Part shown: piece by piece, positions 1 to 35,787 of the stretch
Layout of the letters: every line of letters starts with the position of its first letter
How positions within the stretch are numbered: the first letter of the stretch is position 1
NCBI RefSeq assembly: GCF_020171315.1
Contig: NZ_JAIUZP010000004.1
Coordinates: 496,001 to 560,000 of the forward strand
Direction: 5' to 3'
Origin: Pseudooceanicola nanhaiensis
GTDB lineage: Bacteria > Pseudomonadota > Alphaproteobacteria > Rhodobacterales > Rhodobacteraceae
Length of the DNA stretch: 64,000 nucleotides
Position numbers and translations under genes: made by a program
The notes under the pieces: model-generated
What the model was told of the DNA's origin: nothing
The model's input: the letters and a program-made list of their open reading frames with translations, nothing else
Databases searched by the model: none

Positions 1-1167
1 GGGGCGAAGGCGATCCGCGTTTCTCCCGCCCTCGCCGCACAGGCCACCGAGGCGCTGGTCCGGCACCGCAGGGGCGGGCAAGGTGTGACCGCCGCGCTTG
101 CCGAGGCCGAGCGGCTCTGCGCCTCCACCGCCGCGAACGACTACAGCCAGGCGCTGCGCCTGCGGCTGATCTGGCGCTCATCGGGGCTCGACGCGGCCGA
201 GGCAGCCTTCTGGGACGCGATCGCAGCGGCGCCGCTGTCCAACCACCTGCTGCAGACGGCCCTTCAGATCCCGTTTCCCGAGGCAACCTGCGGCCGTATC
301 GCGCAGGATCAGGCGCCGCGCGTCGATCCCGCCCGGGCCAGCGACCGCACCGCCGCCCGGACGCTGGTCAAGCTGGCCCTGATCGCCGGGCGCCTCGACC
401 TTGCCCGCCAGATCGCCGAGCGTGGCACGGACCACTCCCCGCTGACCGAATTGGTCACCGCGGACCGGCTGCGTCTCAGCCCCCGGCTGGCGCAGAACTG
501 GCCCGAACTTCCGTTCCACGCGGCCCGCAGCCCCGGGGCCCGGGCCGTGCTGCTCTGCTTCCCGGCGGTCGAGCGGCTTTTCGGAGAGCTTCCCGTGCGG
601 GTCTTCGACAGTTATCTGGCTGAGCGCGGGATCGACGTGCTCTATTGCCACGATGCCTCCAACCAGCTCTTTTCCAAGGGCGCGCCGGGCTGCGGCGACA
701 GGTTCGAGGCGGTCGTGGCCCATCTGCGCGCGCAGCCGATGATCGCGCAGGCACCGCACCTCTGGACCCTTGGCGCGTCGCTCGGCGGCTTCACGGCGCT
801 GCGCTTCGGGCTGGCGCTCGGCGCCGAGGTCAGCCTCGCCTTCTCGGCCAAGACCACCCTCGTTCCGGGCCCCGACGCGCCCCGGGACCTGCTGCTGGAA
901 CGCGCCGCGCCCGCGATCCGCCAGATGCTGCCCGAGGGCACCGACCTGTGCGCCGCATGGCCCGGGCGAACCGCGACCCGCAGCCTGCTCTTCCATGGTG
1001 CCGACGCGCCGGTCGATCTGCACCATGCGCAGCGCCTTGCCGGTTGCGCCGGTGTCACCCTGCGGCCCACCGAGGGTGTCGGGGCGCACAACTCGCTCGC
1101 CCCGATGATCCTTGACGGCAGCTTCGGCGAACTGCTCGACAGCCTGCTGGAGACGGCCCCGGCATGA
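1..1167 (+). CDS. alpha/beta-hydrolase-like protein, 5' end outside window
   Basis: The reading frame is open from base 1. A GTG at 85 could start a 360-residue protein, but the frame upstream also codes, so the gene probably begins outside the window. The C-terminal half looks like an alpha/beta hydrolase: a nucleophile-elbow motif GASLGG lies about two thirds along, followed by a segment with a late His (VGAHNSLAP) that could complete a catalytic triad. The N-terminal half is helical and Ala/Leu/Arg-rich, with no recognised domain. The stop overlaps the next start by four bases (ATGA), so it belongs to the same operon as the pyruvyltransferase-like gene. Hydrolase fold is an inference from the motif; the substrate is unknown. 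It could act as an acyl-transfer or release enzyme for the acyl-carrier pathway downstream. Confidence 0.6.
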   Translation, partial: GAKAIRVSPALAAQATEALVRHRRGGQGVTAALAEAERLCASTAANDYSQALRLRLIWRSSGLDAAEAAFWDAIAAAPLSNHLLQTALQIPFPEATCGRIAQDQAPRVDPARASDRTAARTLVKLALIAGRLDLARQIAERGTDHSPLTELVTADRLRLSPRLAQNWPELPFHAARSPGARAVLLCFPAVERLFGELPVRVFDSYLAERGIDVLYCHDASNQLFSKGAPGCGDRFEAVVAHLRAQPMIAQAPHLWTLGASLGGFTALRFGLALGAEVSLAFSAKTTLVPGPDAPRDLLLERAAPAIRQMLPEGTDLCAAWPGRTATRSLLFHGADAPVDLHHAQRLAGCAGVTLRPTEGVGAHNSLAPMILDGSFGELLDSLLETAPA

Positions 1168-2465
1168 CCTTCGTCCCCAGCGAAACAACCGCGGCGCGCC
1201 CGAGCGCCCGAGACGCCAAGGACACCCTGCGGACGGTTGCCGTCTGCGGTGCCTTCGACATGCAGAACTTCGGCGACCTGCTGTTCCCGGTGCTTGCCGC
1301 GCACCGGCTGGCCAATCATGGCTACAAGGTCGTGACCCACGCGCCCACGGACAGCGACCCGGGGCTCGGCCTGCCAGCACCCCGCCCGGTGGAGGCGCTC
1401 TTCGATCCCGCGCAGGACGTCGACGCCGTGATGATCGGGGGCGGTTACATCGTGCATGGCTTCCCGGTCTCCCGCTTCGTCAAGCTGAACCGCGCGGAGG
1501 GCGAGACGGACAACCGGGCCGAGCTTCTGGATTGCTGGATGGGCGCCACCGTCGCCGCCGCCCTGCGCGGCGTGCCCGTGGTCTGGAATGCGCCGGGCGT
1601 GCCCTTCCCCTTCTCCGGGCGGCAGCAGGCCACGCTGGATGCGGTCACCGACGCGGCGGATTACCTCTCCCTGCGCGATGCGGGCAGCGCGGCCTTCCTG
1701 CGGCCCTCCGAGCTGCCCACGGCGCGGATCGTGCCCGATCCGGTCGCCGAGATCTCGCGCATCTGGACGGCCGCCAGCCTCGCCCCGGAACTGGCCGCCT
1801 TCCGCAGCCGCCATGCGGTGCCCGAAGACCGGCCCCTGCTCGCGATCCATGTCCGCGACCGCAGCCTGTCCGGCCTCGGGCCCGAGGGGCTGGCCCGCCT
1901 GATCGACGCCTTCGCGCAGGCGCATCAGCTTCTGCCCGTGCTCATCGCCGTGGGTGACGCCCATCACGACGCCCTGACCGCGCAGTCCGTGGCGCAGCAT
2001 ATGACCGGGCCGCAGGTCGTCCTCAATCAGGCGCTGAGCCTGCGGGAGATCGCCTCCGTCCTTGCCCATGCCCGTCTCTATGTCGGCGCCTCGCTGCACG
2101 GCTACATCGCTGCCAGCTCCTATGGCGTGCCCGGCGCCCTGGTCGCCCGCCCCGCCTATGGCAAGTTCGACGGCTACCTGCGCCACCTCGACCGGCTGAG
2201 CGACAAGTCGCTCGACTGGGCCGCGGCCTTCGACCATGCGGCGCAGCTGCTGGCGGGGCCGCAGACGCGCCCCCTGCCCCCGGCGGTCTTCGACGCACTC
2301 GACCGTCACTGGCAGGAGATGCGTGCCGCCCTCGACAGCGCGGGCCCCACCGCCGCCAGCCGCAGCGATTTCCTGCGCCGCTACATCGCGCTTTGCGTCA
2401 GCCGGTCCGGACCGGCCTGGCTGACATCGCCTTTCAACGCCACCATCAGAGGTATCCAGCCTTGA
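1164..2465 (+). CDS. polysaccharide pyruvyl transferase family protein
   Basis: The 433-residue protein matches the CsaB/WcaK-type pyruvyl transferase family. These enzymes transfer pyruvate from phosphoenolpyruvate to sugars of surface polysaccharides, and some family members are divergent. Visible signatures are the N-terminal N-F-G-D-L motif after a beta strand (AVCGAFDMQNFGDLL), the VMIGGGYIVHG turn near residue 100, and YVGASLHGYIAASSYGVP in the second Rossmann-like half, which corresponds to the family SLHG motif. ATG at 1164 overlaps the previous stop (ATGA). Its stop overlaps the TTG start of the acyl carrier protein gene, so translation is probably coupled. In this context it suggests a glycan or glycolipid product. 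Family is fairly certain; actual pyruvylation is not. Confidence 0.8.
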   Translation: MTFVPSETTAARPSARDAKDTLRTVAVCGAFDMQNFGDLLFPVLAAHRLANHGYKVVTHAPTDSDPGLGLPAPRPVEALFDPAQDVDAVMIGGGYIVHGFPVSRFVKLNRAEGETDNRAELLDCWMGATVAAALRGVPVVWNAPGVPFPFSGRQQATLDAVTDAADYLSLRDAGSAAFLRPSELPTARIVPDPVAEISRIWTAASLAPELAAFRSRHAVPEDRPLLAIHVRDRSLSGLGPEGLARLIDAFAQAHQLLPVLIAVGDAHHDALTAQSVAQHMTGPQVVLNQALSLREIASVLAHARLYVGASLHGYIAASSYGVPGALVARPAYGKFDGYLRHLDRLSDKSLDWAAAFDHAAQLLAGPQTRPLPPAVFDALDRHWQEMRAALDSAGPTAASRSDFLRRYIALCVSRSGPAWLTSPFNATIRGIQP

Positions 2466-2749
2466 CCCAAGCCGACGCTCCCGTCACCGAAATCCCCACG
2501 CCCCAAATCCCCCTTTCCGAAACCGAACTGAAGCAGTGGATGGTGACCTACATCGCACAGCTGCTGTCGCTCGACCCCGCGGGCATCAACACCGCCGACC
2601 GCTTTGACAGCTTCGGGATGGATTCCATCGAGGCCGTGGTGATGGCGGGCATCATGGAGGAGGAATTCGGCGTCCAGATCGAACCGATGCTGCTGGTCGA
2701 CAACCCCTCGATCGACCTCTTCTCCGCCGCCTTCGGCCGCAAGGACTGA
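2462..2749 (+). CDS. acyl carrier protein
   Basis: This is a 95-residue stand-alone acyl carrier protein. The 4'-phosphopantetheine attachment site is GMDSIEA, with Ser55 the expected prosthetic-group serine after Asp54. Helices before and after it have the usual ACP spacing, preceded by an acidic and Pro-rich N-terminal tail. I chose TTG at 2462 because it overlaps the upstream stop (TTGA), has a purine-rich site (AGAGG) about nine bases upstream, and gives a normal ACP length; an in-frame upstream start would run deep into the pyruvyltransferase gene. Its position directly before a fatty-acyl-AMP ligase gene suggests that ligase charges it. It is probably not the housekeeping AcpP, whose usual neighbours are fab genes. 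Confidence 0.88.
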   Translation: MTQADAPVTEIPTPQIPLSETELKQWMVTYIAQLLSLDPAGINTADRFDSFGMDSIEAVVMAGIMEEEFGVQIEPMLLVDNPSIDLFSAAFGRKD

Positions 2750-2752
2750 ACC

Positions 2753-4477
2753 TTGACCGCGTCCCGCGATCTCTGCGTCGTCATCGTCGCGCACCAGATG
2801 CAGCGCGAGTTGCCGCGCACGCTGCTGTCGCTCTCCGAGAGCTACCAGCAGTGGCGCGGCACCCCGGCGCGGCTTCAGGTGATCGTGGTGGACAATGGCT
2901 CCACCCCGCCGGTCGCGGCCGCGGATCAAGCCGCCCTCGGCCTCGACCTGACCGTGCTGACGATGGAGGCGCCCCAGCCCTCGCCCGTCGCCGCGATCAA
3001 CGCGGGCCTCGCCCTCGCCCGGGCGCCCCTGATCGGGGTCTGGATCGATGGCGCGCGGCTGGCTTCGCCCGGCCTGCTTCAGGCCGTGACGGATGCAGCG
3101 GCACGTCATCCGATGCCGGTGATCGCGCCGCTGAACTGGCAGCTGGGGCCGCAGCGGCAGTACATGGCCTCGCAGATCGGCTACGATCAGGCGGTCGAGG
3201 ATGCGCTGCTTGCGTCCATCGGCTGGCCCGACAACGGCTATGACCTCTTCGACATCGCCGTCTGCGAAACCCAGCCACAGCCGACCGCGCCGCTGCTGGA
3301 AAGCAATGCGCTCTTCCTGCCCGCCGCGCTGTGGCAGGCGCTTGGTGGCTACGACCCCGCCTTCTCGGCCCCCGGCGGGGAATTCGCCAATCCCGACATG
3401 CTGGTGCGGGCCTGCGCCCATCCCGGCACGCAGCTGGTGCGGCTGGTGGGCGAAGGCACCTTCCACCAGTTCCACGGCGGCGTCTCCACCTCGGATCAGG
3501 TGCAGGCCGCGCAGGGCGTGAAAGAGGCCAGCCGCAGCTACTACCGCCTGCGGGGCGTCCCGTTCCAGCCGGTGCGCGACATCGGACATATCCAGCGCAG
3601 AAAGGCCAGCAAGCCCATGCAACAGCCCAACCCCGACACCCTGCGCCAGCGCTACGCCCGCGACGGCTACATCGCGCCGCTGCGCATCCTCGACACCGCC
3701 CGCGTCGATGCCCTGCGCGCCCTCGTGGACAAGCTGGGCGCCGCCCGGGGCGGCCGCCTGCCGCCTGCGCTCAACATGAAGGCGCACCTGCTGATCCCCG
3801 AACTCTGGGACCTCGTGCATCATCCCGACATCGTCGGCCCCGTAACCGCCCTGCTGGGCGAGGATGTCCTGTGCTGGGGCAGCAGCTTCTTCGACAAGGC
3901 CCCCGGGACCGCCGACCACGTGCACTGGCATCAGGATTCGACCTACTGGGGGCTGGAACGCCCCGATGCCCTCACCGCCTGGATCGCGTTCACCCCCTCC
4001 ATCGGGGAGAACGGCTGCCTGCGTGTCGTGCCCGGCAGCCATGGGGCGCAGATGCGCCACCGCGATGCACAGGACCCCGCCAACATGCTGGGCGGCGGAG
4101 AGGTGCTCTGCGACGCGGTCGACGAGGCGACGGTGGTCGACGTGCCGCTTCAGCCCGGCGAGATGTCGATCCACCACCAGCGGCTCATCCACGGCTCGCG
4201 CCCCAACACCGGCAGCCTGCGCCGGATGGGCTTTGCGATCCGTTACATCGCCGGTGACCTGAAGGGCCTGAAGAACGACCAGAGCTATGCCACCCTCGTG
4301 AACGGGCGCGACCTCGGCGGCTTCGTCATGGAGCAGGCCCCGCGCAGCCTGATGGACCCGGAGGCCCTGCGCCGGCACGGGACGATCCTGCGCAAGTTCA
4401 ACACGATCATCCGGCGCGAGATCGACGAACACGCGGCCAGCAGCACGGCAGAGGCCCATGACACTGCTGATACATGA
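2753..4477 (+). CDS. glycosyltransferase family 2-like / PhyH dioxygenase fusion protein
   Basis: This 574-residue protein has two parts. Residues 1-285 resemble a GT2 glycosyltransferase: an opening strand (CVVIVAH), VVDNGS at 46-50, and an acidic VWIDG at 96-100 where GT2 enzymes place the metal-binding aspartates. Residues about 295-560 are a phytanoyl-CoA dioxygenase (PhyH) type Fe(II)/2-oxoglutarate oxygenase. It keeps the facial triad His393-x-Asp395 (HWHQDSTYWG) and distal His480 (RLIHGS), plus the 2-oxoglutarate-binding Arg region (RRMGFAIRY, 490-498). The aspartate argues for hydroxylation rather than halogenation. The start is TTG at 2753, four bases after the ACP stop, with AAGGA upstream. 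The 3' end overlaps the next gene by 20 bases. That gene carries a second PhyH domain. The substrate is unknown. Confidence 0.8.
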   Translation: MTASRDLCVVIVAHQMQRELPRTLLSLSESYQQWRGTPARLQVIVVDNGSTPPVAAADQAALGLDLTVLTMEAPQPSPVAAINAGLALARAPLIGVWIDGARLASPGLLQAVTDAAARHPMPVIAPLNWQLGPQRQYMASQIGYDQAVEDALLASIGWPDNGYDLFDIAVCETQPQPTAPLLESNALFLPAALWQALGGYDPAFSAPGGEFANPDMLVRACAHPGTQLVRLVGEGTFHQFHGGVSTSDQVQAAQGVKEASRSYYRLRGVPFQPVRDIGHIQRRKASKPMQQPNPDTLRQRYARDGYIAPLRILDTARVDALRALVDKLGAARGGRLPPALNMKAHLLIPELWDLVHHPDIVGPVTALLGEDVLCWGSSFFDKAPGTADHVHWHQDSTYWGLERPDALTAWIAFTPSIGENGCLRVVPGSHGAQMRHRDAQDPANMLGGGEVLCDAVDEATVVDVPLQPGEMSIHHQRLIHGSRPNTGSLRRMGFAIRYIAGDLKGLKNDQSYATLVNGRDLGGFVMEQAPRSLMDPEALRRHGTILRKFNTIIRREIDEHAASSTAEAHDTADT

Positions 4478-6857
4478 CCGCATCCTTCAGGCGGCCGACG
4501 CCGCCCCCGGGGCAGAGGCCCTGCGCTTCCTGCCCAACGGCGAGGAGGTCGGCGCGCGGCTGAGCTATGGCGCACTTGCGGCGCAGGGCCTGCAGCTGGC
4601 CCGTGCCCTTGCCCGGCGCGGGTTGACGGGCCGTCCCGTGGCGCTGCTGCTCGACCCCGGGCCGGAACTGCCTGTAGCACTTCTGGGGCTCTTCCGCGCC
4701 GGTGCGATCGCCACGCCCTTGCCGATGCCCGTGGGTGCCGGGCCCCTGCGCCGGGTCGAAAGCGCGCTTGCAGCGCTGCGCCCGGCGGCGATCCTCTGTG
4801 CCCCCTCGGTGGCGCAGCACCCGGCCCTGCGCCGCGCCGGTGTGCCCTGCCTCACGGTCGCGGAGCTGCTGGCCGAGGCCCGCGACAGCGGGTCGCCCGA
4901 CGGCCCCGCGCCCGATGCCCCGGCAGTCATCCAGTTTTCCTCCGGCTCCACCGCCGAACCGCGCGGCATCGTCCTGTCCCATGCCAATGTCGCCGCCAAC
5001 CTTGCCATGATCCGCGACTGTTCCGGCGCCGGGCCCGGCACCGTCACCGTGACGTGGCTGCCCCACAGCCACGACATGGGGCTTTTCGGCACGCTGCTGA
5101 CGCCGCTCTTTGCCGGGGCAACCATGGTGCAGATGCCCCCCAACGCCTTCCTGCGCCGTCCCTACCGCTGGCTGAAGGCGCTCAGCGACCATCGCGCCAA
5201 CTACACGGCCGCCCCGGATTTCGGCTATGCGCTCAGCCTGCGCAGGCTCAGCCCCGCCCTCTGTGAGGGTCTCGACCTTTCGGCCCTCTCCAGTGCCTTC
5301 ATCGGAGCCGAGCCGACGCGGATGAGCACGGTCGAGGCCTTTTCCACGGCCCTCGCGCCGGCCGGGTTCCGGCGCTCTGCCCTCGTCTCCTGCTACGGGC
5401 TGGCCGAGGCGACGCTGCTGTGCTCCGCGGGCCCTGCCCTGCCCGCCGGGCGCCATGCCACCTGTGGCAGCGCCGTCCCAGGGGTCCGGCTCACCCTGCG
5501 CCCGACGCCACTGAGCCCGGTGCCCGGCACCGGCGAGGTCCTTGTCGGTGGCCCCCATGTGGCGATCGGCCTGTGGCGCGGAGCGACGCAGGATCACGCG
5601 CCGTTTCCGGAAGAGGTCATCGACGCCGGCGGGCACCGGATGGTGCCCACCGGGGACCTTGGGCGGATCGAGGACGGACAGCTGCAGATCCTCGACCGGC
5701 TGAAGGACACGCTTGCCCTGCGCGGCGGCACGATCGGCCCGGCCGAGATCGAGGCCGAGGCCCGCGCCACCGATCCCCGGATCACCGCCGCCGCCGCCGT
5801 GCCCGCACCCGAGACCCCTGCCGGGACCCCCTCTGCCGATGTCGCCCTCGCGATCGAGATCGACAGCCGCCGCCTCGTACCCGGCGCAGAGGACGAGATC
5901 ACCCGCGCCGTCGCCGCGCGTCTGGCCGCGGCCTTCGGCCTGCAGGTGAGCCTGCATCCCTTCGCCCCATGGAAACTGCCACGCACGACCAGTGGCAAGA
6001 TCAGGAGATTTGCCGTGCGAGACCTCATCAGGGCCACCGCCGCCCCCACCGGACGCGCCCCCGCCCGCGTCTCCCCCGACCCGGAGAGCTTTGCCGAGGC
6101 GGGCGTCATCTCTCCCCTCACCGTGATGACGCCGGAGGCCACCGATGAGGTGCTTGGCGTCGTGCAGCGCCTCGCGCGGCTGCGCGGGGAGCTTCCGCCG
6201 GTCCTGCGGGCCAAGCCGCACCTGCTGGTGCCAGAACTCTGGGACCTCGTGCATGCGCCCGCCGTGGTGGACCCGGTGCGCCGTATCCTCGGGCCCGACG
6301 TGCTCTGCTTCGGGACCAGCATGATCTGGAAGCCCTCGGCGCGGGACCTGCATGTCTCGTGGCATCAGGACAGCACCCACTGGGGGCTGGAAACCCCCGA
6401 GGCGGTGACCGCCTGGCTTGCGCTCACCCCCAGCACGCGGGCGAATGGCTGCGTGCTGGTCGCGCCGGGCACGCACCGCAGCGTCGTGCCGCATGACCAC
6501 CCGGAGGACGCGCTGAACATGCTGGGCCGCAAGGAAGTCGCCCGCGCCGAGATCGCGCCGGAGCAGACCGTCGCGCTGGAACTGGCACCGGGGCAGATGT
6601 CGATCCACCATTCCCTCGTGCTGCATGGATCAGAGCCGAACCGCAGCGGCGGCGACAGGATCGGTTTTGCCATGCGGTTCATCCCCGCCGGGAATGGCCA
6701 GCGGGACGGGCGCCGCGGGACAGCGACGCTCGTCTGCGGCAAGAGCCACGACCGCTACGAACTGGAGGTCGGCCCCGAGAAGCTGATGGCGCCCGAGGCG
6801 CTGCGCCGCCATGCGCATATCCTGCGCCGCGGGCATGAGATCATCTACGGCTCATGA
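4458..6857 (+). CDS. fatty-acyl-AMP ligase / PhyH dioxygenase fusion protein
   Basis: This is a 799-residue two-domain enzyme. Residues 1-525 are an adenylate-forming ligase of the FAAL type: FSSGSTAEPRG (160-170) is the ATP-binding loop, then WLPHSHDMGL (200-209), SCYGLAEATLL (311-321), PTGDLGRIEDG (397-407), and LPRTTSGKI (507-515) with the catalytic Lys514. FAALs activate fatty acids as acyl-AMP and pass them to an ACP, which fits the ACP gene at 2462. Residues about 550-799 are a PhyH dioxygenase with His636-x-Asp638 (SWHQDSTHWG), distal His723 (VLHGSEP) and Arg734/Arg740. The arrangement suggests activation and oxidation of the same acyl chain, which is an inference. ATG at 4458 lies inside the previous gene's end. 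Confidence 0.85.
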   Translation: MTLLIHDRILQAADAAPGAEALRFLPNGEEVGARLSYGALAAQGLQLARALARRGLTGRPVALLLDPGPELPVALLGLFRAGAIATPLPMPVGAGPLRRVESALAALRPAAILCAPSVAQHPALRRAGVPCLTVAELLAEARDSGSPDGPAPDAPAVIQFSSGSTAEPRGIVLSHANVAANLAMIRDCSGAGPGTVTVTWLPHSHDMGLFGTLLTPLFAGATMVQMPPNAFLRRPYRWLKALSDHRANYTAAPDFGYALSLRRLSPALCEGLDLSALSSAFIGAEPTRMSTVEAFSTALAPAGFRRSALVSCYGLAEATLLCSAGPALPAGRHATCGSAVPGVRLTLRPTPLSPVPGTGEVLVGGPHVAIGLWRGATQDHAPFPEEVIDAGGHRMVPTGDLGRIEDGQLQILDRLKDTLALRGGTIGPAEIEAEARATDPRITAAAAVPAPETPAGTPSADVALAIEIDSRRLVPGAEDEITRAVAARLAAAFGLQVSLHPFAPWKLPRTTSGKIRRFAVRDLIRATAAPTGRAPARVSPDPESFAEAGVISPLTVMTPEATDEVLGVVQRLARLRGELPPVLRAKPHLLVPELWDLVHAPAVVDPVRRILGPDVLCFGTSMIWKPSARDLHVSWHQDSTHWGLETPEAVTAWLALTPSTRANGCVLVAPGTHRSVVPHDHPEDALNMLGRKEVARAEIAPEQTVALELAPGQMSIHHSLVLHGSEPNRSGGDRIGFAMRFIPAGNGQRDGRRGTATLVCGKSHDRYELEVGPEKLMAPEALRRHAHILRRGHEIIYGS

Positions 6858-8011
6858 CCCGCGCCGCACCTCCGATCCACGGGGCCGCCGCCCCGACCGA
6901 GCCACGGGCAGGGCCACGGGCCGCCGCCTGCCCCGAGACCCTCGTGGCAGGCCGCACCCGGCTGATCGCCAGCTACGACGGCGTGCGCGAGGACCTGCGC
7001 AAGGCGCGCTCTGCCCGCGGGCCGACGGCGACACAGATTGCACGCATGCTCTCTGTCACCGATCAGCCGCACGGGCTGCTTCTCGACCTGCTCAGCAGCA
7101 GCCCCTTCCTCTCGACCGGCGCGGATCACGCGGTGAAACGCCGCCGGGCGGTGCACATACTGGCCCGGCTCGGCCGCCTGTGGCCGCAGGAGAGGCTGGC
7201 GACCGAATACCGGCGGCGCCTGACCGGCCTGATGGAACGCGGCGGGGGCGATCTTTACCACGATCTCTCGCTGCCCTTCCTCAAGGCCGTGATCGCCGAT
7301 GCGATCGGCCTCGATGCGGCGCAGATGGAACAGGTCTTCAAGCCGGTGTCCGCGCTCTTCGCCACCGCGCAGCGGGATGACATGCGGCTGCAGGATTTTC
7401 AGTCCATCGCCGCCCAGATCGAGGGCCTGCGGCCGATCATCGACAGTGTCCCCGTCGAACCGCTGGAGGGGATGAGCCCGCAAAGTTCGCTGCTCCTGAT
7501 GGCGCAGTCACTGATCCCGCCGCTCCTCGTGCCGGCCAACAGCCTGACCTACGCGCAGCTCCACCTGGCCGAACACCCGGCCCTTGCGGCGCGGCTGACG
7601 GCGGGCCAGATCCGGATCTGCGATTACATCCACGAGAGCCTGCGCCACTTCGGCGCGCTGGACCGGACCGCGCCGGGCCGTGCCAAGGACGACCTCACCC
7701 TGCCCCGGGGCGAGGAGATCGCGCAGGGCGCGCTCTACACCTGTTCGATCGCCCGCGCCAATCGCGACCCGGCCCGTTTCGACAGGCCCGACGTGCTGGA
7801 CCCGGAGCGCGCCCTGCGCAGCGAGATCACCTTCGGCACCGGTCCGCACCGATGCCCCGCGGCCGGGTTCAGCCTGATCCTGCTGGAGACCGCCCTGCGC
7901 CTGCAGCTGGAGCTGTGCCGGATCGAGGTCGTGGGCGAGGTCAGCATCGCCCGCACGGCCATCGGGCCGCGCTACCAGACCGCCCCGGTGCGTCTGCATC
8001 CACTTGGCTGA
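6854..8011 (+). CDS. divergent cytochrome P450
   Basis: The 385-residue protein has the two most conserved P450 signatures: the K-helix ExxR (Glu261-Ser-Leu-Arg264) and the heme-thiolate loop FGTGPHRCPA (327-336) with Cys334 as the axial ligand. The final Gly of the canonical FxxGxxxCxG loop is Ala here. The region expected to be the I helix (about 210-240) lacks an obvious acid-Thr pair for oxygen activation, so the reaction may be unusual or substrate-assisted. No membrane anchor is seen, as for soluble bacterial P450s. It overlaps the FAAL-PhyH gene by four bases (ATGA) and is the last gene of the operon. With two PhyH domains it makes three potential oxygenases acting on the same pathway. 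No redox partner is encoded nearby. Confidence 0.82.
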   Translation: MTRAAPPIHGAAAPTEPRAGPRAAACPETLVAGRTRLIASYDGVREDLRKARSARGPTATQIARMLSVTDQPHGLLLDLLSSSPFLSTGADHAVKRRRAVHILARLGRLWPQERLATEYRRRLTGLMERGGGDLYHDLSLPFLKAVIADAIGLDAAQMEQVFKPVSALFATAQRDDMRLQDFQSIAAQIEGLRPIIDSVPVEPLEGMSPQSSLLLMAQSLIPPLLVPANSLTYAQLHLAEHPALAARLTAGQIRICDYIHESLRHFGALDRTAPGRAKDDLTLPRGEEIAQGALYTCSIARANRDPARFDRPDVLDPERALRSEITFGTGPHRCPAAGFSLILLETALRLQLELCRIEVVGEVSIARTAIGPRYQTAPVRLHPLG

Positions 8012-8221
8012 TCCGCGGGTGCCTCGCAGCCGGGCGTCAGACCATCGGGCGCGGGGACCCGGGCATCAGACGAAGTAGCGACGGCGCCAAGCACACCTGC
8101 GATGCCACGCAAATTCCGCCACCGTCGCGCCGTGGCGCGAGGCAGACTCACTGTGGCCCCCTTGGTGCGCGCCCTCGTAGACAGGGGCCCGTTAGACTTT
8201 GCCAGCGGTATCGCGCGCGGA

Positions 8222-11200
8222 TCATTCCGCAGGCTGGGTCGCCGCCTCCGTCTCCTGCCGCCGTGGCAGGAAACCCTCGACCAGCATGTAGATCACCGGC
8301 GTCACGAAGAGCGTCAGCACGAAGGCAAAGCTGAGCCCGCCCGTGATGACGAGGCCGATGGCCTGCCGGCTCTCGGCGCCCGCGCCTGCGGCGGTGGCCA
8401 GCGGGACCGCACCCAGAACGGTGGCAATCGTGGTCATGGTCACGGGCCGCAGCCGGGTCACCGCGCCCTCGATGGCCGCTTCGCGCAGGGAATGGCCCTC
8501 CTCGCGCAGCTGGTTGGAGAATTCCACCATCAGGATGCCGTTCTTGGCCATCAGCCCCACCAGCAGGACGAGGCCCACCTGGCTGAAGATGTTCACGCTC
8601 TGCCCGGTCAGCCAGAGGGTCAGCACCGCGCCTCCCAGCCCCAGCGGCACCGTCAGCATGATCACCAGCGGGGTGCGGAAGCTTTCAAACTGCGCCGCCA
8701 GCACGAGGAAGACGATCGCCATGGCCATGCCGAAGACCATCGTCATCCCGCCCGAGGCGCGGATGAAGTCCGCCGCCTGCCCGGTCCAGGCAATGGTGGC
8801 GCCGGCGGGCAGCGCCGCCACGGCGCTTTCCACCCGGCCCATGACCTGCGCAAGGTCCGCCCCCGCCGGCAGGTCCGCCTCCATCGAGACGGAATGCACG
8901 CGGTCGTAGCGCTCGATCGAGGGCACGGTGGCGGCGGTTTCGATCGTGGCGACGGAGGACAGCGGGATCAGGTCGCCGCGGCTGTTGCGCAGCAGGATCG
9001 ACATCAGGTCAGCGGGGTTGTCCCGGTCCTCGGGCGCGGCCTGAAGCACGACCGGATACTGCCGCCCGTCTGAGGTGTATTCCCCCACGGTCCGCGAGGC
9101 GACCAGCGTCTGCAGGGTGGAGGAGACCGTCTCGGCATCAAGGCCAAGGTCCTGCGCGCGCAGCCGGTCCACGGTCAGCGTGGCCCCGGGCTGGTTCGCG
9201 GCATAGCCCACCTCGACGTTGGAGAGGTCGGGATCGGGCTCCAACGTGACGGCCAGCTCCTGCGCCCATTCCGCGGCGCGGTCGATGTCGGGGGCGCCCA
9301 GCATGAACTGCAGCCCGCCGCGCCCGCTGCCGATGCCAAGACCGCCGGAGGGGCGCATCCCGGTCTGGACCTCGGTGATCCGCGACAGCGGCCCGCGCAG
9401 CCCGGCCATGACCTCGGTCACGCTCTGATCCCGCTGGTCCCATGGCACGAGGTTCACGAAAAGCAGCGCGCGGCGCAGCTCTCCCCAAAGCCCGACGATG
9501 GAGGTGACATTGACCACGACACCCTGTTCGCGCAGCGGATCGAGCAGCGCCTCGACCTCGCGCACGGCGGTGTCGGTGTAGTCGAGGCTCGCCCCCTGCG
9601 GGGCGGTCACGTAGATGCGGAACTGGCCGCGATCCTCGGGCGGGGTCACCTCCTTGGGCAGCGCGAGGTAGAGCGCGACGGAGCCCGCCACGATGAAGCC
9701 CGCGAAGGCCAGCAGGATCTCCGGCGCCTTCAGAACGGCGCGCAGGCCCGCGCGATACCCGCGCTCGACCTGATGGATGACCGCATCCACGACGCGGGTC
9801 AGCAGGTTGGGCCGGTCGTCGCTCGGCATCATCCGCGCCGCCAGCATCGGCGACAGCGTCAGCGCCACGAAGCCCGACACGGACACCGCCACCGCCAGCA
9901 CGATGCCGAATTCGGCGAACAGCTGGCCGATCTGGCCCTCCATGAAGCTGACCGGCAGGAAGACCGCGATCAGCACGGCGGTGGTGGCGATGACGGCGAA
10001 GTTCACCTGATTGGCGCCGCGCCGGGCGGCCTCGGACCGGCTCTCGCCCATGGCGCGGTGGCGCTGGATATTCTCCAGCACGACGATGGCGTCATCCACC
10101 ACGAGGCCGATGGCGAGGATCATCGCAAAGAGCGTCAGGATGTTCAGCGAGAAGCCCAGCAGGGACATCACCAGCGCCGCGCCGAGGATCGACACCGGGA
10201 TCGTGACCACCGGCACCATGGAGAGCCGCGCAGAGCCGAGGAAGAGGAAGATCACCGCCGTCACCAGCAGCACCGCCTCCATGAAGACCTGCCCGACCTC
10301 GTTCAGCGTCGTCTCGATGAAGAGCGCTTCGTCCGAGGTCACCTCCAGCCGCATCCCCGCGGGCAGCAGCGGGCGCATGGTGTCCAGCTCGGCCTTCACC
10401 GCCTTGGAAATGGAGACGGTATTGGCCTGTGCCTGCGGCTGGATACCGATGCCAAGGCCGGTCACGCCATTGGCGCGGTTGAGGCTTTCGTTGCTGGAGG
10501 GGCCCGGCTCGATCCGGGCCACGTCGCCGAGGCGCAGCGGACGCTCGCCGCCATCGCGGATCACCAGCTGGGCGAATTCGGCGGCAGAGGTCATCCGGGT
10601 CCGCGCCAGCAGCTGCAGTTGCCGCGCGCCGGTCTCGATCTCGCCTGCGGGCAGCTCGATGTTGTTGGATTGCAGCGCCGAGGTGATGTCGCCCGTGGTC
10701 ACGCCATGGGCCGCCATCAGCCCGGCGTCCAGCCAGATGCGCATCGCGGGCGCCCGCTCGCCGTAGAGCGCGGCATTGGCCACGCCGGGCAGCCGGGCGA
10801 GCCGGTCGGTGATGTAGCGGTCGGCATAATCCGACAGCTCCAGCGGGGTCATGTTGCTGGACGAGAGGGAGAGCCGCAGCACCGGGTCGCCCTGATCGTC
10901 GTTCTTGCGCACCACGGGGGCGTCGGCCCCGTCCGGCAGGTCGCGGGCCGCGCGGTCCACGGCGGTGCGCACATCGTTCGCGGCGCTCTCGATATCGCGG
11001 GAGGGATCGAAGACCAGCACCGTGCGGGCGCGGCCGCGCTCGCTCTCGGTATCCATGCTCTGCAGGCCGCTGACCCCGGCGAGCGCCCCCTCGACGACGC
11101 TGGCGACCTGACTGTCGACCACGTCGGGCGAGGCGCCGGTATAGCTGACGCTGACGGTGATCCGCGTGGCCTCGGTCTGGGGCAATTCGCGCACCGGCAG

Positions 11201-11293
11201 CCGCGACAGGGCGACGGCCCCCAGCAGCACGATCAGCAGGTTCAGCACCGTGGCCAGAACCGGGCGGCGGATGGAGAGATCGGGCAGGCTCAC
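8222..11293 (-). CDS. RND-family multidrug efflux permease
   Basis: The 1023-residue inner-membrane protein has the AcrB/MexB (HAE1) layout: an N-terminal helix after MSLPDLSIRRPVLATV, two large periplasmic loops, and twelve predicted membrane segments in two repeats. The proton-relay motif GLVVDDAIVVLENI sits in helix 4. The second half carries matching helices ending in VTPVIYMLVEGFLP. It should export hydrophobic or amphiphilic compounds using the proton gradient, together with the adaptor encoded immediately upstream (four-base overlap). No outer-membrane channel gene is adjacent, so an unlinked TolC-type protein is probably used. Substrate is unknown. Confidence 0.93.
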   Translation of the reverse strand: MSLPDLSIRRPVLATVLNLLIVLLGAVALSRLPVRELPQTEATRITVSVSYTGASPDVVDSQVASVVEGALAGVSGLQSMDTESERGRARTVLVFDPSRDIESAANDVRTAVDRAARDLPDGADAPVVRKNDDQGDPVLRLSLSSSNMTPLELSDYADRYITDRLARLPGVANAALYGERAPAMRIWLDAGLMAAHGVTTGDITSALQSNNIELPAGEIETGARQLQLLARTRMTSAAEFAQLVIRDGGERPLRLGDVARIEPGPSSNESLNRANGVTGLGIGIQPQAQANTVSISKAVKAELDTMRPLLPAGMRLEVTSDEALFIETTLNEVGQVFMEAVLLVTAVIFLFLGSARLSMVPVVTIPVSILGAALVMSLLGFSLNILTLFAMILAIGLVVDDAIVVLENIQRHRAMGESRSEAARRGANQVNFAVIATTAVLIAVFLPVSFMEGQIGQLFAEFGIVLAVAVSVSGFVALTLSPMLAARMMPSDDRPNLLTRVVDAVIHQVERGYRAGLRAVLKAPEILLAFAGFIVAGSVALYLALPKEVTPPEDRGQFRIYVTAPQGASLDYTDTAVREVEALLDPLREQGVVVNVTSIVGLWGELRRALLFVNLVPWDQRDQSVTEVMAGLRGPLSRITEVQTGMRPSGGLGIGSGRGGLQFMLGAPDIDRAAEWAQELAVTLEPDPDLSNVEVGYAANQPGATLTVDRLRAQDLGLDAETVSSTLQTLVASRTVGEYTSDGRQYPVVLQAAPEDRDNPADLMSILLRNSRGDLIPLSSVATIETAATVPSIERYDRVHSVSMEADLPAGADLAQVMGRVESAVAALPAGATIAWTGQAADFIRASGGMTMVFGMAMAIVFLVLAAQFESFRTPLVIMLTVPLGLGGAVLTLWLTGQSVNIFSQVGLVLLVGLMAKNGILMVEFSNQLREEGHSLREAAIEGAVTRLRPVTMTTIATVLGAVPLATAAGAGAESRQAIGLVITGGLSFAFVLTLFVTPVIYMLVEGFLPRRQETEAATQPAE

Positions 11294-12387
11294 GGCGACA
11301 CGCGGGTCAGGCTGGCGGCCTGCATCCCCTCGGCGGCCACCACCTCGGTGCCGTCGCTGACGCTGTGCAGGTTGGTGACGATGACGGGCATCCCCTCGGC
11401 CACGTCGCCGGTAACCTCGATCAGCGTGCCGCGCTGCATGCCGGTCACCACCTCGATCCGGCGCGCGACGTCGCCATCGACCACGTGGATGAAGCTTTGC
11501 GTGCCGGCAGAGGTCAGCGCGCGTTCCGGCACCGCCAGCCCGTCGCGGCGCGACAGCTCCAGCGAGGCCTGCATGAACATGCCCGGCCGCAGGCGGCGGT
11601 CACCGTTGGGCACCTCGGCGCGCAGCGCGATCGAGCGGGTCGAGGGATCGACCCGCGTGTCGAGCGCCGAGATCCGACCTTCGAAGGCTTGCTCGGCCCA
11701 GGCCGGCGTGGTGAAGCTGACCGCCTGCCCCGGCGCGAGCCGCGACAGGTAGCGTTCCGGCACGTTGAAGGCCACTTCGACCACCGAGAGATCGTCCAGC
11801 GTGGCGATCTCCGTCGCGGTGGTCACGATCTGGCCCGGCGAGACATCAGTCAGGCCCACGACCCCGTCGAAGGGCGCGGTGAGCCCGCGGTCCGACAGCG
11901 TGACAAGGGCAAGGTCGCGTTCCGCCTGCGCGCGCAGCAAGGTGGCGCGGGCGGCCTGAAGCGCGGCCTCGGAACTGCTGCCGCTCTGCTCCAGCCGCTG
12001 CTGGCGGTCGAAGGCGGCCTGCGCCTCCGAGACGGTCGCCTCGGCGGCGGCGAGGCTGGCGTGGGCCTCGGCATCTTCCAGTTCCAGCAGCAGGTCGCCC
12101 CGGCGCACCTCCTGCCCCGGGGTGATATGGACCTGCACGATCCGCCCCCCGGCAGAGGGTTGCAGCGTCACGGACTGGCGCGCGCGGGCCGAGCCCACGG
12201 CCTCGATCGTCTCGACGAAAGTCTGCTGCTGCACGGGTTCGGTGATCACCCGCACGGGGCCACGGGGGCCGCGCGGCCCCTGGGCCGCAGGGGAGGTGGC
12301 CGCCTGCATCTGGTCCGTCAGCTTGAACCCGGCGTAGGAGGCCCCCGCCAGCAGAACGACGCCCAGAAGGATGCGCAACAGCTTCAT
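11290..12387 (-). CDS. RND efflux periplasmic adaptor subunit
   Basis: This 365-residue membrane-fusion protein is of the AcrA/HlyD type. It begins with a hydrophobic segment (LLRILLGVVLLAG) that serves as signal or anchor. It then shows a lipoyl half-motif (GGRIVQVHITPGQEVRRGD), a coiled-coil hairpin of Ala/Glu/Arg-rich helices (about 110-170), the second lipoyl half (LTAPFDGVVGLTDVSPGQ) and beta-barrel domains. ATG at 12387 was preferred to an upstream in-frame start because an AAAGG site lies six bases before it and the signal segment follows directly. The stop overlaps the permease start (ATGA), so the two are co-translated. It bridges the permease to an outer-membrane channel. Confidence 0.92.
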   Translation of the reverse strand: MKLLRILLGVVLLAGASYAGFKLTDQMQAATSPAAQGPRGPRGPVRVITEPVQQQTFVETIEAVGSARARQSVTLQPSAGGRIVQVHITPGQEVRRGDLLLELEDAEAHASLAAAEATVSEAQAAFDRQQRLEQSGSSSEAALQAARATLLRAQAERDLALVTLSDRGLTAPFDGVVGLTDVSPGQIVTTATEIATLDDLSVVEVAFNVPERYLSRLAPGQAVSFTTPAWAEQAFEGRISALDTRVDPSTRSIALRAEVPNGDRRLRPGMFMQASLELSRRDGLAVPERALTSAGTQSFIHVVDGDVARRIEVVTGMQRGTLIEVTGDVAEGMPVIVTNLHSVSDGTEVVAAEGMQAASLTRVSP

Positions 12388-12662
12388 CAAATGCCTTTCA
12401 GTATCTCCCCGTGCGGCAGAATGAATACAGCCCTGAATTCCGGCAAGTGAAGAAACGAAGATGACTGCCCGGCATGACATTTCGTGATCACCTGCGCCCG
12501 GAAGTTGGCGGCCGGCCCGGCCCCGGCGCACAACCCCACGGAGAAACGGACAAAAGACATATCCGCTATCCCAATTTAGATGCCACTGCTACGATCCCTG
12601 CGGGTCAGCAGTTCGGCCCGGACCAGCCAACGCCTCAGTCGCCAGTTCCGGAGTTCCCTCAG

Positions 12663-13589
12663 ATGACAGATTTTCTCAGACCGCAGACCGCCCGTCGGAG
12701 CCTTGGCGCAGACCGGGCGGGCAGCAAACCAGCCCCGACCGCCGCACCGCTTGCCGCGCTGCTCGGGCTGGCGGCCCTCGCCGTGGCGGGCAGTGCCACC
12801 GCGCCCCGGGCCGAAACGCCGGCGGAGCGCGGCGCGACCCTCGTGCAGGGGATCATGGGCTGCGGCAACTGCCACACCCCGATGGGCCCCGAAGGCCCGG
12901 TGATGTCACAGGACCTCTCGGGCCGGCTGGTGGACAAGAACGACATGTTCACCGCCATCGCGCCCAACATTACCCCCGCAGGCCGGGTCGCGGACTGGTC
13001 CGACGCCGAACTGGCCCGCGCCATCCGCGAGGGCATCCGCCCCGACGGCAGCATCATCGGCCCGCCGATGCCCTTTGCCGCCTACCGGGCCATGTCGGAC
13101 GAGGACCTCGCGGCGGTCGTGGCATACCTGCGCACCGTCCCGGCGGTGGAGGCCGACCCGGGCCAGTCGACCTATGCCATCCCCCTGCCCCCGGCCTATG
13201 GCCCGCCGCTGGAGACGCCCGTTACCGCGCCGCCCGCCGGGGCGACGGTGGAGTATGGCGGCTACCTCGCCGCGCTGGGGCATTGCATGGAATGCCATTC
13301 GCCCCTGACCCCGCAGGGCCCCGACTGGGGCGAAGGCTTTGCCCGCGGCGGGATGGAGTTCCACGGGCCATGGGGCGTGTCCCACGCGCCGAACCTGACC
13401 AACCACGAGGACGGGCTGGCGGGCTACAGCGATGCAGAGCTGAAGACGATGATCGGCACCGGCACGCGGCCCGACGGGGCGCAGATGCTGCCGCCGATGC
13501 CCTACGGCTACTTCGGCCGACTGTCGGAGCAGGACATGGAGGCGCTGGTGCTCTACCTCCGGTCGATTCCGGGCAAGCCCGACCTGTGA
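12663..13589 (+). CDS. diheme c-type cytochrome
   Basis: The 308-residue exported protein has two c-heme attachment sites: Cys67-Gly-Asn-Cys70-His71 and Cys208-Met-Glu-Cys211-His212. Each lies at the start of a cytochrome c domain and is followed by Met-containing segments (PPMPFAAYRAM, LPPMPYGYFG) that could give axial ligands. A hydrophobic stretch at about 28-48 ending near ATAPRAE is a likely Sec signal peptide. ATG at 12663 keeps that signal; the frame is also open upstream but lacks such features. This layout is common in the cytochrome subunits of periplasmic dehydrogenases, but no dehydrogenase subunit is adjacent, so the redox partner is unknown. It is transcribed divergently from the RND pump. 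Confidence 0.88.
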   Translation: MTDFLRPQTARRSLGADRAGSKPAPTAAPLAALLGLAALAVAGSATAPRAETPAERGATLVQGIMGCGNCHTPMGPEGPVMSQDLSGRLVDKNDMFTAIAPNITPAGRVADWSDAELARAIREGIRPDGSIIGPPMPFAAYRAMSDEDLAAVVAYLRTVPAVEADPGQSTYAIPLPPAYGPPLETPVTAPPAGATVEYGGYLAALGHCMECHSPLTPQGPDWGEGFARGGMEFHGPWGVSHAPNLTNHEDGLAGYSDAELKTMIGTGTRPDGAQMLPPMPYGYFGRLSEQDMEALVLYLRSIPGKPDL

Positions 13590-13611
13590 CCGCGCCCGCT
13601 TGAGCCTTGCC

Positions 13612-13634
13612 GGGGCCGGCGAGAGACCGGCCCC
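13612..13634 (+). terminator. hairpin after the cytochrome c gene
   Basis: An 8-bp perfect GC stem (GGGGCCGG / CCGGCCCC) with a 7-base loop begins 22 bases after the cytochrome stop. There is no T-run behind it, so it may be a weak or Rho-assisted terminator. Confidence 0.4.
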
Positions 13635-13816
13635 GCACCGAGGGCACGTACCCGTGCCTGCCCCCTCTGCCGCCTCGCCCCGGTGGCCGGATGATTGATC
13701 CTTGGGCACTCTCCCCCGTGCCTCGGGCGACGACGCACCGTCACGGCTTCGTGTCCGCGGGAATTGATGCGGCGCAAAGTCAGCACTCGCGAATCTCCCT
13801 AGTCTGAACCGGTTGA

Positions 13817-15710
<1,894 letters not shown>

Positions 15711-15714
<4 letters not shown>

Positions 15715-16007
15715 CCGGGCCTGCCCCCAAGCCCCCCGGGGCCAACGACCACCTCGCCGAGGCTGCCCGCCGCACTGCCGCGCGCGACCAGATCGCGCAG
15801 GACACGCCCGAGCCCTCGCTCGGCGCGCGGCTGGGGCAGATCGGCATCCTCGGCTGGGCCGTGATCGTGCCCACGCTGATGGGGGTCGGTCTGGGCCGGA
15901 TGGCGGACCACTACTTCGACACCGGGGTGTTCTTCACCGCCCCGGCGATCATGCTCGGCGCCGCCATCGGCTTCCGGGCGATCTGGAAATGGATGCACAG
16001 ACAATGA
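15711..16007 (+). CDS. atpQ: N-ATPase subunit AtpQ (AtpI-like membrane protein)
   Basis: The 98-residue protein has a hydrophilic, charged first 40 residues and then two membrane helices (GILGWAVIVPTLMGVGLGRM and FFTAPAIMLGAAIGFRAIW). This is the AtpI/AtpQ pattern, a family linked to assembly of the c-ring or to cation handling. GTG at 15711 overlaps the atpC stop. AtpQ is one of two small membrane proteins that distinguish N-ATPase operons. Identification rests on topology and operon position more than on a catalytic motif. Confidence 0.85.
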
Positions 16008-16294
16008 CCCTCGACGCGCTGCTGACTGCCCCGCTCCTGCTTGCCGCCCTCGCGCTTGCCGCCGGTACCGGCGCGGGGATCGTGCATTTCGCCAGCCTCA
16101 GGCGGGTCACCGCGCTCTACCTCGAAGGTGGGCTGGCCGCGCGGACCGTGGCGCTGCAACTGCTGCGCCTTGCGCTGCTGGCCGCGCTGCTGGTGGGGCT
16201 GGCGCTGCTGGGGGCGCTGCCGCTGCTCTGCGGTACGCTCGGGCTGCTGCTGGGGCGGCAGATCGTGCTGCGCCGCGCACGGGGTGCCGCGTGA
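16004..16294 (+). CDS. atpR: N-ATPase subunit AtpR
   Basis: The 96-residue, very hydrophobic protein has three predicted membrane segments: LLTAPLLLAALALAAGTGAG, a middle LLRLALLAALLVGLALLG, and LLCGTLGLLLGRQIVL. Size and position between atpQ and atpB match AtpR, found only in N-ATPase operons and of uncertain function, possibly in rotor assembly. ATG at 16004 overlaps the atpQ stop (ATGA). The short TALYLEGGLAARTVALQL loop is the most polar conserved-looking part. Overlap with atpB at the 3' end suggests translational coupling. Confidence 0.85.
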   Translation: MTLDALLTAPLLLAALALAAGTGAGIVHFASLRRVTALYLEGGLAARTVALQLLRLALLAALLVGLALLGALPLLCGTLGLLLGRQIVLRRARGAA

Positions 16295-16989
16295 TGGACA
16301 ACCCGCTGACGCTGGAACCGCTGTTTCATGCGGGCCCCGTGCCGATCACCGCGCCGGTGCTCGTGACCTGGGCCATCCTGATCGGCCTCGCGCTCGGCTG
16401 CCGGATCGCGACGCGCCGCCTTTCGCTCACGCCCGGGCGGCTGCAGGTGGTGCTGGAGCTTTTCGTCACCGTGGTGGACGACCAGATCCGCGATACAATG
16501 CAGCGCCCCCCGGCGCGCTACCGCCCGCTGATCGGCACGATCTTCCTCTACGTGCTGATCGCCAACTGGTCCTCGCTCGTGCCCGGGATCGAACCGCCGA
16601 CCGCCCGGCTGGAAACCGATGCCGCGCTCGCGCTGATCGTCTTTGCCGCCACGGTCTGGTTCGGGATCGCGGCGCAGGGGCTGCGCGGCTACCTCAAGAC
16701 CTTCGCCGAGCCGACATGGGTCATGATCCCCCTGAACCTGATCGAGCAGGTCTCGCGCACGCTGTCGCTCGTTGTCCGCCTCTTCGGCAACGTGATGAGC
16801 GGCGTCTTCGTCATCGGCATCGTGCTGACCCTCGCAGGCCTGCTGGTGCCGATCCCGCTGATGGCGCTCGACCTGCTGACCGGGGCCGTGCAGGCCTACA
16901 TCTTCGCCGTTCTGGCCACCGTCTTCATCGGGGCCGCCGTCGGTGAACATTCTCCCTCTCCCGAAACCGCAAAGGACCTACCGCAATGA
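16294..16989 (+). CDS. atpB: N-ATPase Fo subunit a
   Basis: Subunit a is a five- to six-helix membrane protein forming the ion half-channels. The essential arginine is in SRTLSLVVRLFGNVMSG, matching the conserved helix-5 pattern with R-L-x-x-N. ATG at 16294 gives 231 residues; a GTG three bases earlier is an alternative that overlaps the atpR stop more fully. Its stop overlaps the atpE start (ATGA). The length is at the short end for the family, as is usual for N-ATPases. Confidence 0.93.
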   Translation: MDNPLTLEPLFHAGPVPITAPVLVTWAILIGLALGCRIATRRLSLTPGRLQVVLELFVTVVDDQIRDTMQRPPARYRPLIGTIFLYVLIANWSSLVPGIEPPTARLETDAALALIVFAATVWFGIAAQGLRGYLKTFAEPTWVMIPLNLIEQVSRTLSLVVRLFGNVMSGVFVIGIVLTLAGLLVPIPLMALDLLTGAVQAYIFAVLATVFIGAAVGEHSPSPETAKDLPQ

Positions 16990-17234
16990 CCGGAGACCTG
17001 ATCCAGATCGTCAGCATCCTCGCCGCGGCCATCGCCGTGTCGTTCGGGGCCATCGGCCCCGCCCTCGCCGAAGGCCGCGCCGTGGCGGCCGCCATGGATG
17101 CCATCGCCCGCCAGCCCGAGGCCGCGGGCACCCTCAGCCGCACGCTCTTCGTCGGCCTCGCCATGATAGAGACCATGGCGATCTACACCCTCGTGATCGC
17201 GCTGCTCGTGCTCTTCGCCAACCCCTTCGTCTGA
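16986..17234 (+). CDS. atpE: N-ATPase Fo subunit c
   Basis: The 82-residue hairpin protein has two membrane helices joined by the polar loop ARQPEA. The ion-binding Glu62 is in MIETMAIYTL. It is accompanied by Glu29 in helix 1 (GPALAEG) and Thr63. By alignment with the Ilyobacter Na+ c-subunit, Glu29 takes the place of Gln32, Glu62 of Glu65, and Thr63 of Ser66. A second carboxylate plus a hydroxyl next to the main Glu is the pattern reported for Na+-type N-ATPase rings, so Na+ translocation is plausible. The Thr67 equivalent is Met here, so it remains an inference. Confidence 0.94.
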   Translation: MTGDLIQIVSILAAAIAVSFGAIGPALAEGRAVAAAMDAIARQPEAAGTLSRTLFVGLAMIETMAIYTLVIALLVLFANPFV

Positions 17235-17247
17235 GCGCGGCCCAGCC

Positions 17248-33985: not shown

Positions 33986-33988
33986 GGC

Positions 33989-35787
<1,799 letters not shown>

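Follow-up and report, generated by a model that had tools for sequence, protein, structure and literature searches.

The window analyzed here is a 64,000-nucleotide stretch of Pseudooceanicola nanhaiensis contig NZ_JAIUZP010000004.1 (G000:C4:496001-560000, where G000 is the source genome). Its left end carries six plus-strand genes, A to F, in one tightly coupled operon. In order, they encode a TPR-like/hydrolase-like protein (A), a member of the PF04230 "polysaccharide pyruvyl transferase" (PST) family (B), an acyl carrier protein (ACP, C), a glycosyltransferase family 2 (GT2) domain fused to a PhyH domain (D), a putative fatty-acyl-AMP ligase (FAAL) fused to a second PhyH domain (E), and a cytochrome P450 (F). 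PhyH domains are of the Fe(II)/2-oxoglutarate (2OG) type. The preliminary description, made from the sequence alone, named the same genes, domains, and order, and all were confirmed, on the plus strand; the domains of B to F are present in Pfam searches. This gene set recurs in other genomes far beyond chance. With about even confidence, the patchily distributed operon is read as making an oxidized acyl group on a dedicated carrier and coupling it to a sugar or glycan.

A recurring gene set

A matching set is encoded on plasmid pBSY17_1 of Sphingobium sp. RAC03 (BSY17_RS00365 to RS00400). Its eight parts lie on one strand and in the same order as those of the window: TPR-hydrolase, PST, ACP, GT2, PhyH, FAAL, PhyH, and P450. 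Identities to the window parts are, in that order, 28 (over 212 amino acids), 40, 55, 51, 54, 42, 45, and 27%. In Sphingobium, GT2, PhyH, FAAL, and PhyH each have a gene of their own, whereas the window has them fused pairwise, in both cases between direct neighbors of the Sphingobium order. The plasmid set also has an additional PST gene and two methyltransferase genes upstream and a GT4-GT4 gene downstream; GT4-type glycosyltransferases are found in the cluster of genome G259 as well. The plasmid locus is annotated in its database record; no paper on it came up in the literature searches, none of which named it.

Nine cluster loci are known from this analysis: the window, Sphingobium, G259, G1276, G559, G055, G254, G067, and G233. 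Eight were assigned by the GT2 tree, while G559, where the GT2 is split over two contigs, was counted by its neighbors, which is partly circular. The ACP is present in all nine loci and a full FAAL in eight. The PF04230 subfamily and the TPR-hydrolase are each found in seven, as is the P450; neither G233 nor the pair of broken contigs in G559 showed one. Five loci possess the PhyH pair (window, Sphingobium, G259, G1276, and G559), and three a ketosynthase (G259, G559, and G1276). Gene calls were poor in the lower-GC loci L052, L069, and L088, and components there were read by tblastn. The proposal of a coherent set that combines acyl activation and oxidation with glycan-type transfer and is conserved outside the strain is borne out by the Sphingobium order and by parts in seven other genomes.

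Rearranged, partly re-fused versions are seen in G259, G1276, G559, G055, G254, and G067. The FAAL is fused to the ACP in G259 and G559, and the PST to the TPR-hydrolase in one order in G259 and G1276 and in the reverse order in G559. In G067, the GT2 is fused to a TylF methyltransferase. Such swapping and fusing of the same parts points to one shared pathway and would otherwise be hard to explain; that the set recurs with four kinds of internal fusion argues strongly for it. In the co-occurrence check proposed earlier, GT2, PhyH, FAAL, and ACP recur together, and among the nine loci the two fusions named there are seen in the window only.

Three observations concern individual loci. One of two tandem PF04230 genes of G254 (L053:3612-4765) is split into two frames, and the neighboring copy is open. 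In G233, a 58-residue FAAL-like scrap (L052:9225-9398) lies on the strand opposite to an ACP-GT2 pair and is possibly the trace of a decayed cluster. A SPASM-domain protein, with a radical SAM match below the cut-off, adjoins the FAAL in the PhyH-less cluster of G067 (L051:13212-14045).

Trees and profiles tie the parts to the clusters. The eight placeable in-cluster GT2s form one clade (99/98) in a tree of 27 rows. The 14 loci with GT2 relatives outside this clade (seven from the phylum search, four from the order search, one from the genus of G259, and two plasmids) hold none of the eight component types at E<=1e-4, with L090 covered on the right only to its end about 400 bases past the GT2. 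In the PhyH tree, a 100/99 split separates the ten cluster sequences from five other PhyHs of the family; the D domain pairs with the first Sphingobium PhyH at 96/96, and the E domain falls among the cluster ten without a settled place. A profile of the PF04230 subfamily (E<=1e-30) has six matches in three of 390 genomes of the order, all six inside clusters. In eight chosen genomes, 12 of 12 matches lie in clusters, spread over six genomes, with none in G067 or G233.

The distribution is patchy; the genome samples overlap. With gene E as the query, a single genome out of 22 from the genus shows the FAAL-PhyH fusion; at E<=1e-20, gene E matches in nine of the 22, and outside G000 only its AMP-binding part is matched (29-32%). 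Gene D matches in 71 of 295 genomes of the family at E<=1e-25, mostly through PhyH alone, and its GT2 half in six (G000, G055, G067, G233, G254, and G259). The GT2 profile is matched in seven of 390 genomes of the order (G000, G067, G254, and G1276 with a cluster and three without), two of 385 of the class (G000 and G559), and eight of 349 of the phylum (G000 and seven at cluster-less loci). It is also matched in one of 17 genomes of the family of G559 and two of three of the genus of G259, one of these without a cluster. Misses are possible in the family search with D, in the class, phylum, and order GT2 searches, and in the order PF04230 search, where scoring covered only the top 4-7 candidates of each genome. 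A contig scan with exact peptide patterns of D returned a weak PhyH-type match only (24%). Among 72,556 plasmid records, D has 79 matches and E 1,346, each with one at >=80% coverage, in both cases Sphingobium sp. RAC03; gene B has five, one at >=80% coverage, again from Sphingobium sp. RAC03, and four weak (57-61 bits, Caballeronia and Burkholderia).

Colinearity of the sister genome G003 with G000 (93.6% over 3,941 aligned columns) stops at C4:504222, where an efflux gene ends, 211 bases right of the last gene of the operon; past this point, G003 has other genes over the stretch read. The efflux proteins of the two genomes are 96% identical. Presence in 1 of 22 genomes and this right-edge break in synteny suggest gain or loss as a block.

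Domains and candidate active-site residues

A genome-wide Pfam search at E<=0.001 recovers no PhyH domain besides those of D and E (105 and 94 bits). H103, D105, H190, and R201 are invariant in eight of eight cluster PhyHs, so that the HxD...H triad and the 2OG-binding Arg are complete; the metal and 2OG roles are those we take these residues to have from general PhyH motifs. Gene D reads WHQDST where CytC3 reads WHQAAT. In halogenases of this type, the triad Asp is replaced by Ala or Gly. Since it is kept in both window domains, hydroxylases are expected rather than halogenases. The nearest NCBIfam model is TIGR01762 ("chlorinating enzyme"), with 88.6 bits for D and 65.8 for E against a cut-off of 226.3. 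The best relative in the PDB is 6zyk (126 bits), followed by CytC3, SnoK, and SyrB2.

The haem Cys and ExxR are kept in all seven cluster P450s. The I-helix motif AGx[ED][TS] is absent from those of the window, G259, and G1276, all three PhyH-bearing, and present in Sphingobium (AGADS), which has PhyH, and in the PhyH-less G055, G254, and G067. PhyH may have taken over oxidation from the P450, though the numbers are small. The best NCBIfam match of gene F is TIGR04515, a P450-derived glycosyltransferase activator (52.9 bits against a cut-off of 343), with the haem Cys kept in F.

The phosphopantetheine Ser of the ACP lies in FGMDSIE, and its Asp-Ser pair is kept in all nine cluster ACPs. For the AMP-binding half of gene E, the best NCBIfam and PDB matches include FAALs, and the score is below the cut-off of every FAAL model among the best 25 of 88 NCBIfam families. 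The FAAL-type segment between anchors, a proxy of length only, has 24 residues in E and 23-26 in four annotated FAALs. It has 17 residues in five of six other AMP-binding proteins of the genus and 22 in the sixth, all presumed acyl-CoA ligases; the comparison leaves out G259, G1276, G055, G254, L006, and L013, where the segment is unreadable.

The GT2 family reads DGA[RH] where other GT2s carry D-x-D, in 27 of 27 rows (DGAR in 25, DGAH in two; IDGAR in the window). Chondroitin synthase reads LDSDD at this site, and the N-terminal half of the domain aligns with that enzyme and with GalT1. A wider DGA[RH] family of GT2-like proteins is found at L016, L018, L067-L073, and L089-L093, some in glycan loci. 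Fusions to methyltransferase domains occur in this family at L072, L090, and L016, the last by record annotation.

Gene B clears PF04230 (62.2 bits against a cut-off of 25.3, Pfam) and falls under the CsaB model TIGR03609 (45.7 bits against 213.1, NCBIfam). In two reports, the phosphoenolpyruvate (PEP) contacts CsaB R148, R306, H308, and K328 correspond to Pvg1p R217, R337, H339, and K361, and the contact of CsaB R306 comes from docking rather than mutation (PMC10435577, PMC4872226). All 10 aligned cluster PF04230 proteins have Ser at the R306 equivalent (Ser310 in B), while the equivalents of R148, H308, and K328 are retained and E. coli WcaK has Arg at the R306 position. The correspondence was read through a MAFFT alignment with WcaK (19% identity) and rests on shared motifs in it, because hhalign against WcaK gave a probability of 5% (E 0.0078). 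A PDB search with the PF04230 alignment profile gave spurious matches only (amyloid-like protein 1 and a DNA-binding protein), and one with the single gene B sequence gave no match. The pyruvyl-modified glycan of the preliminary description is not supported by this comparison: with Ser in place of a PEP-contact Arg of the R-x-H motif, pyruvyl transfer is unsafe to assume, though one residue does not disprove it. A pyruvyl product of gene B is therefore doubtful.

Gene A carries a candidate nucleophile motif, GASLG, near window position 772. Its Pfam scores are below the cut-off (PF12146 E 0.1, TPR_14 E 0.0065).

Proposed pathway and alternatives

In the proposed pathway, the FAAL part of E would adenylate a free carboxylic acid and load it on ACP C. 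The PhyH domains of E and D would then introduce hydroxyls at two positions of the acyl group on the carrier. P450 F would oxidize it further or be an atypical helper. The GT2 of D would attach a sugar at the hydroxyl thus formed, or link acyl-ACP and glycan in some other way, and B would serve as a second (GT-B-like) transferase. Finally, the alpha/beta-hydrolase half of A would release or transfer the product. The gene set, its conservation, the fusions, and the catalytic residues are observed; we infer the substrates, the order of steps, and the direction of transfer, sugar onto acyl group or the reverse. CytC3 and SyrB2 act on carrier-bound substrates, and it is by analogy with such relatives that the PhyH domains would act on acyl-ACP. 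As proposed, the operon would be a self-contained module in which an acyl group is oxidized on its carrier and linked to a sugar.

Several points weigh against this pathway. PhyH is missing from four of the nine loci, the PST and the TPR-hydrolase from two each, and the P450 from one, with none seen in a second, broken locus, so the chemistry varies. The FAAL tree (13 rows, five of them outside the clusters) has two supported groups, the window with Sphingobium, G055, and G254 (100/99) and G259 with G1276 and G559 (100/99); with G067 unsettled and the window FAAL on a long branch, it does not show single descent of the cluster FAALs. The hydrolase half of gene A is only weakly recognized. The GT2 domain, lacking D-x-D, may not be an ordinary glycosyltransferase, but E. 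coli GT2 WcaE reads NSGD at that site, so the missing motif alone does not show that activity is lost. AlphaFold, run on the single sequences, modeled B and D at pLDDT values of 37 and 36, with no usable fold. The best PDB relative of the PhyH domain, 6zyk (labeled a monooxygenase), is presumably the peptide hydroxylase ThoJ and not a carrier-protein enzyme. Another PF05721 enzyme, TsaJ, is reported to hydroxylate a peptide His (PMC8153245). Membership in PF05721 thus does not imply a carrier-bound substrate.

The main rival, judged somewhat unlikely, is polysaccharide decoration, where the oxidized acyl group is not glycosylated on the carrier but passed by A or D to a sugar of an exopolysaccharide, capsule, or O-antigen. 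Some GT2 relatives outside the cluster clade are found in glycan loci: one in Rhodobacter sp. CZR27 has rfbABCD, Wzz, and a sugar transferase nearby, and one in G742 adjoins genes for a sulfotransferase and an ABC-2 exporter. PF04230 and GT4 proteins are typical of polysaccharide loci. Set against this, no flippase, polymerase, initiating sugar transferase, or nucleotide-sugar gene is present among the Pfam-scanned flanks or the Sphingobium annotations, a weak argument given that most other flanks are unannotated.

A second alternative is a building block of the SyrB2/CytC3 type. Here a small amino or hydroxy acid would be loaded, hydroxylated by the PhyHs and the P450, and built into a small secreted molecule. 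The PhyH matches to TIGR01762 and, after 6zyk, to CytC3, SnoK, and SyrB2 fit such a role, as do the ketosynthases of three clusters. With an activating enzyme that scores as FAAL-like rather than amino-acid-adenylating, and with Pfam-scanned genes that include neither a condensation domain nor a peptide synthetase, it is considered distinctly improbable.

Chance neighbors, or a decaying island without a single function, would account for the patchiness (FAAL-PhyH in one genome of the genus), the end of colinearity with G003, and the possible remnant in G233. Open frames, conserved order, tight coupling, the GT2 and PhyH clades, and the four fusion kinds speak for a working unit, and the conservation of the gene set across cluster loci led to the rejection of this very improbable explanation. 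Halogenation by the PhyH domains in place of hydroxylation, prompted by the name of the nearest curated model for the PhyH half of D, was rejected as next to impossible, with WHQD in both domains, the triad Asp in all eight cluster PhyHs, and TIGR01762 scores far under the cut-off.

For the oxidized acyl-sugar pathway, a more specific and tentative extension is considered unlikely. The DGAR GT2 clade would be an ACP-dependent, metal-independent transferase that acts on the acyl group while the ACP still carries it and in which the invariant Arg of DGAR replaces the D-x-D metal, and its PF04230 partners would no longer use PEP. If true, the operon would perform carrier-tethered glycosylation, with PhyH domains fused to both the glycosyltransferase and the loading enzyme. 

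Apart from this extension, the database names of the ACP-linked DGAR GT2s and of the Ser-for-Arg PF04230 subfamily may mislead on their chemistry. The earlier statement that no described pathway has this gene set agrees with the literature found: searches of open-licence papers on FAALs with pyruvyl transferase, ACP, PhyH, glycosyltransferase, and P450 gave no match to it.

Operon layout and comparison with known systems

The features of the operon are listed in the table. The operon had been placed within positions 1 to 8011, which holds for the six genes except that gene A (L003:17272-19167, 631 amino acids, GTG start) begins 729 bases further left, as a check of the left side showed. Adjacent genes had been said to overlap by 4 to 20 bases. 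Four junctions do (A/B by 4, B/C by 4, D/E by 20, and E/F by 4), and C/D is a 3-base gap. The B/C overlap presupposes the chosen ACP start, TTG at 2462, where the open reading frame listing has 2393. All six reading frames in the window are open. A sigma-70-like promoter was looked for in the leader of the operon and not found, a result that carries little weight.

Table. Operon genes and domains, in window positions
Feature	Position	Strand	Evidence
Gene A, 3' portion (full protein 631 aa): TPR-like N-terminal, alpha/beta-hydrolase-like C-terminal part	1..1167	+	Sphingobium likeness; sub-cut-off Pfam
Gene B, PF04230 "polysaccharide pyruvyl transferase" family, cluster-specific subfamily	1164..2465	+	PF04230 E 9.6e-17
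Gene C, acyl carrier protein, 95 aa	2462..2749	+	PF00550 E 8.4e-13
Gene D, GT2-PhyH fusion, 574 aa	2753..4477	+	PF00535 E 8.1e-8 (residues 8-121), PF05721 E 3.3e-29 (301-492)
GT2-like domain of D	2753..3622	+	IDGAR at 3044-3058
First Fe(II)/2-oxoglutarate (PhyH) domain, in D	3623..4474	+	WHQD 3926-3937, distal His codon 4190, Arg codon 4223
Gene E, FAAL-PhyH fusion, 799 aa	4458..6857	+	PF00501 E 1.6e-52, PF05721 E 3.6e-25
Second Fe(II)/2-oxoglutarate (PhyH) domain, in E	6057..6854	+	HxD...H...R set as in D
Gene F, cytochrome P450, 385 aa	6854..8011	+	haem Cys334, ExxR

Three neighboring features were also recorded. A divergent gene of 760 amino acids (L003:14332-16611, minus strand), about 1.4-3.7 kb left of base 1, encodes PAN domains and a thiol-activated cytolysin domain (PF01289 E 7.1e-19). 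To the right, an RND efflux pump and an HlyD-type adaptor are encoded at 8222-12531 on the minus strand; the end of the efflux gene is the synteny break with G003. Nitrogen-fixation genes lie at about 33000-35700, where the DNA is 73-78% identical to the nifB region of Rhizobium, Sinorhizobium, Methylococcus, and Paraburkholderia plasmids (ten matches listed).

Several parts of the operon have known relatives from which they depart. Gene B shares membership of PF04230 and three of four PEP residues with CsaB, Pvg1p, and WcaK. Unlike CsaB and Pvg1p, it has Ser at R306/R337 and belongs to a subfamily confined to these clusters in the genomes searched. The window GT2 is a PF00535 domain like known GT2 glycosyltransferases, but has DGA[RH] for the LDSDD of chondroitin synthase and belongs to a clade tied to an ACP.

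The SyrB2/CytC3 halogenases (TIGR01762) are the closest curated family to the window PhyHs by score and are among their PDB matches. The window domains differ in retaining the facial-triad Asp and in being fused to GT2 or FAAL. FAAL-ACP systems (FadD32, FadD28, and similar) share with the window an AMP-binding domain, possibly of FAAL type by its segment length, beside a free ACP. Unlike these systems, the window FAAL has a C-terminal PhyH fusion, and no ketosynthase was found in window positions 1-20000.

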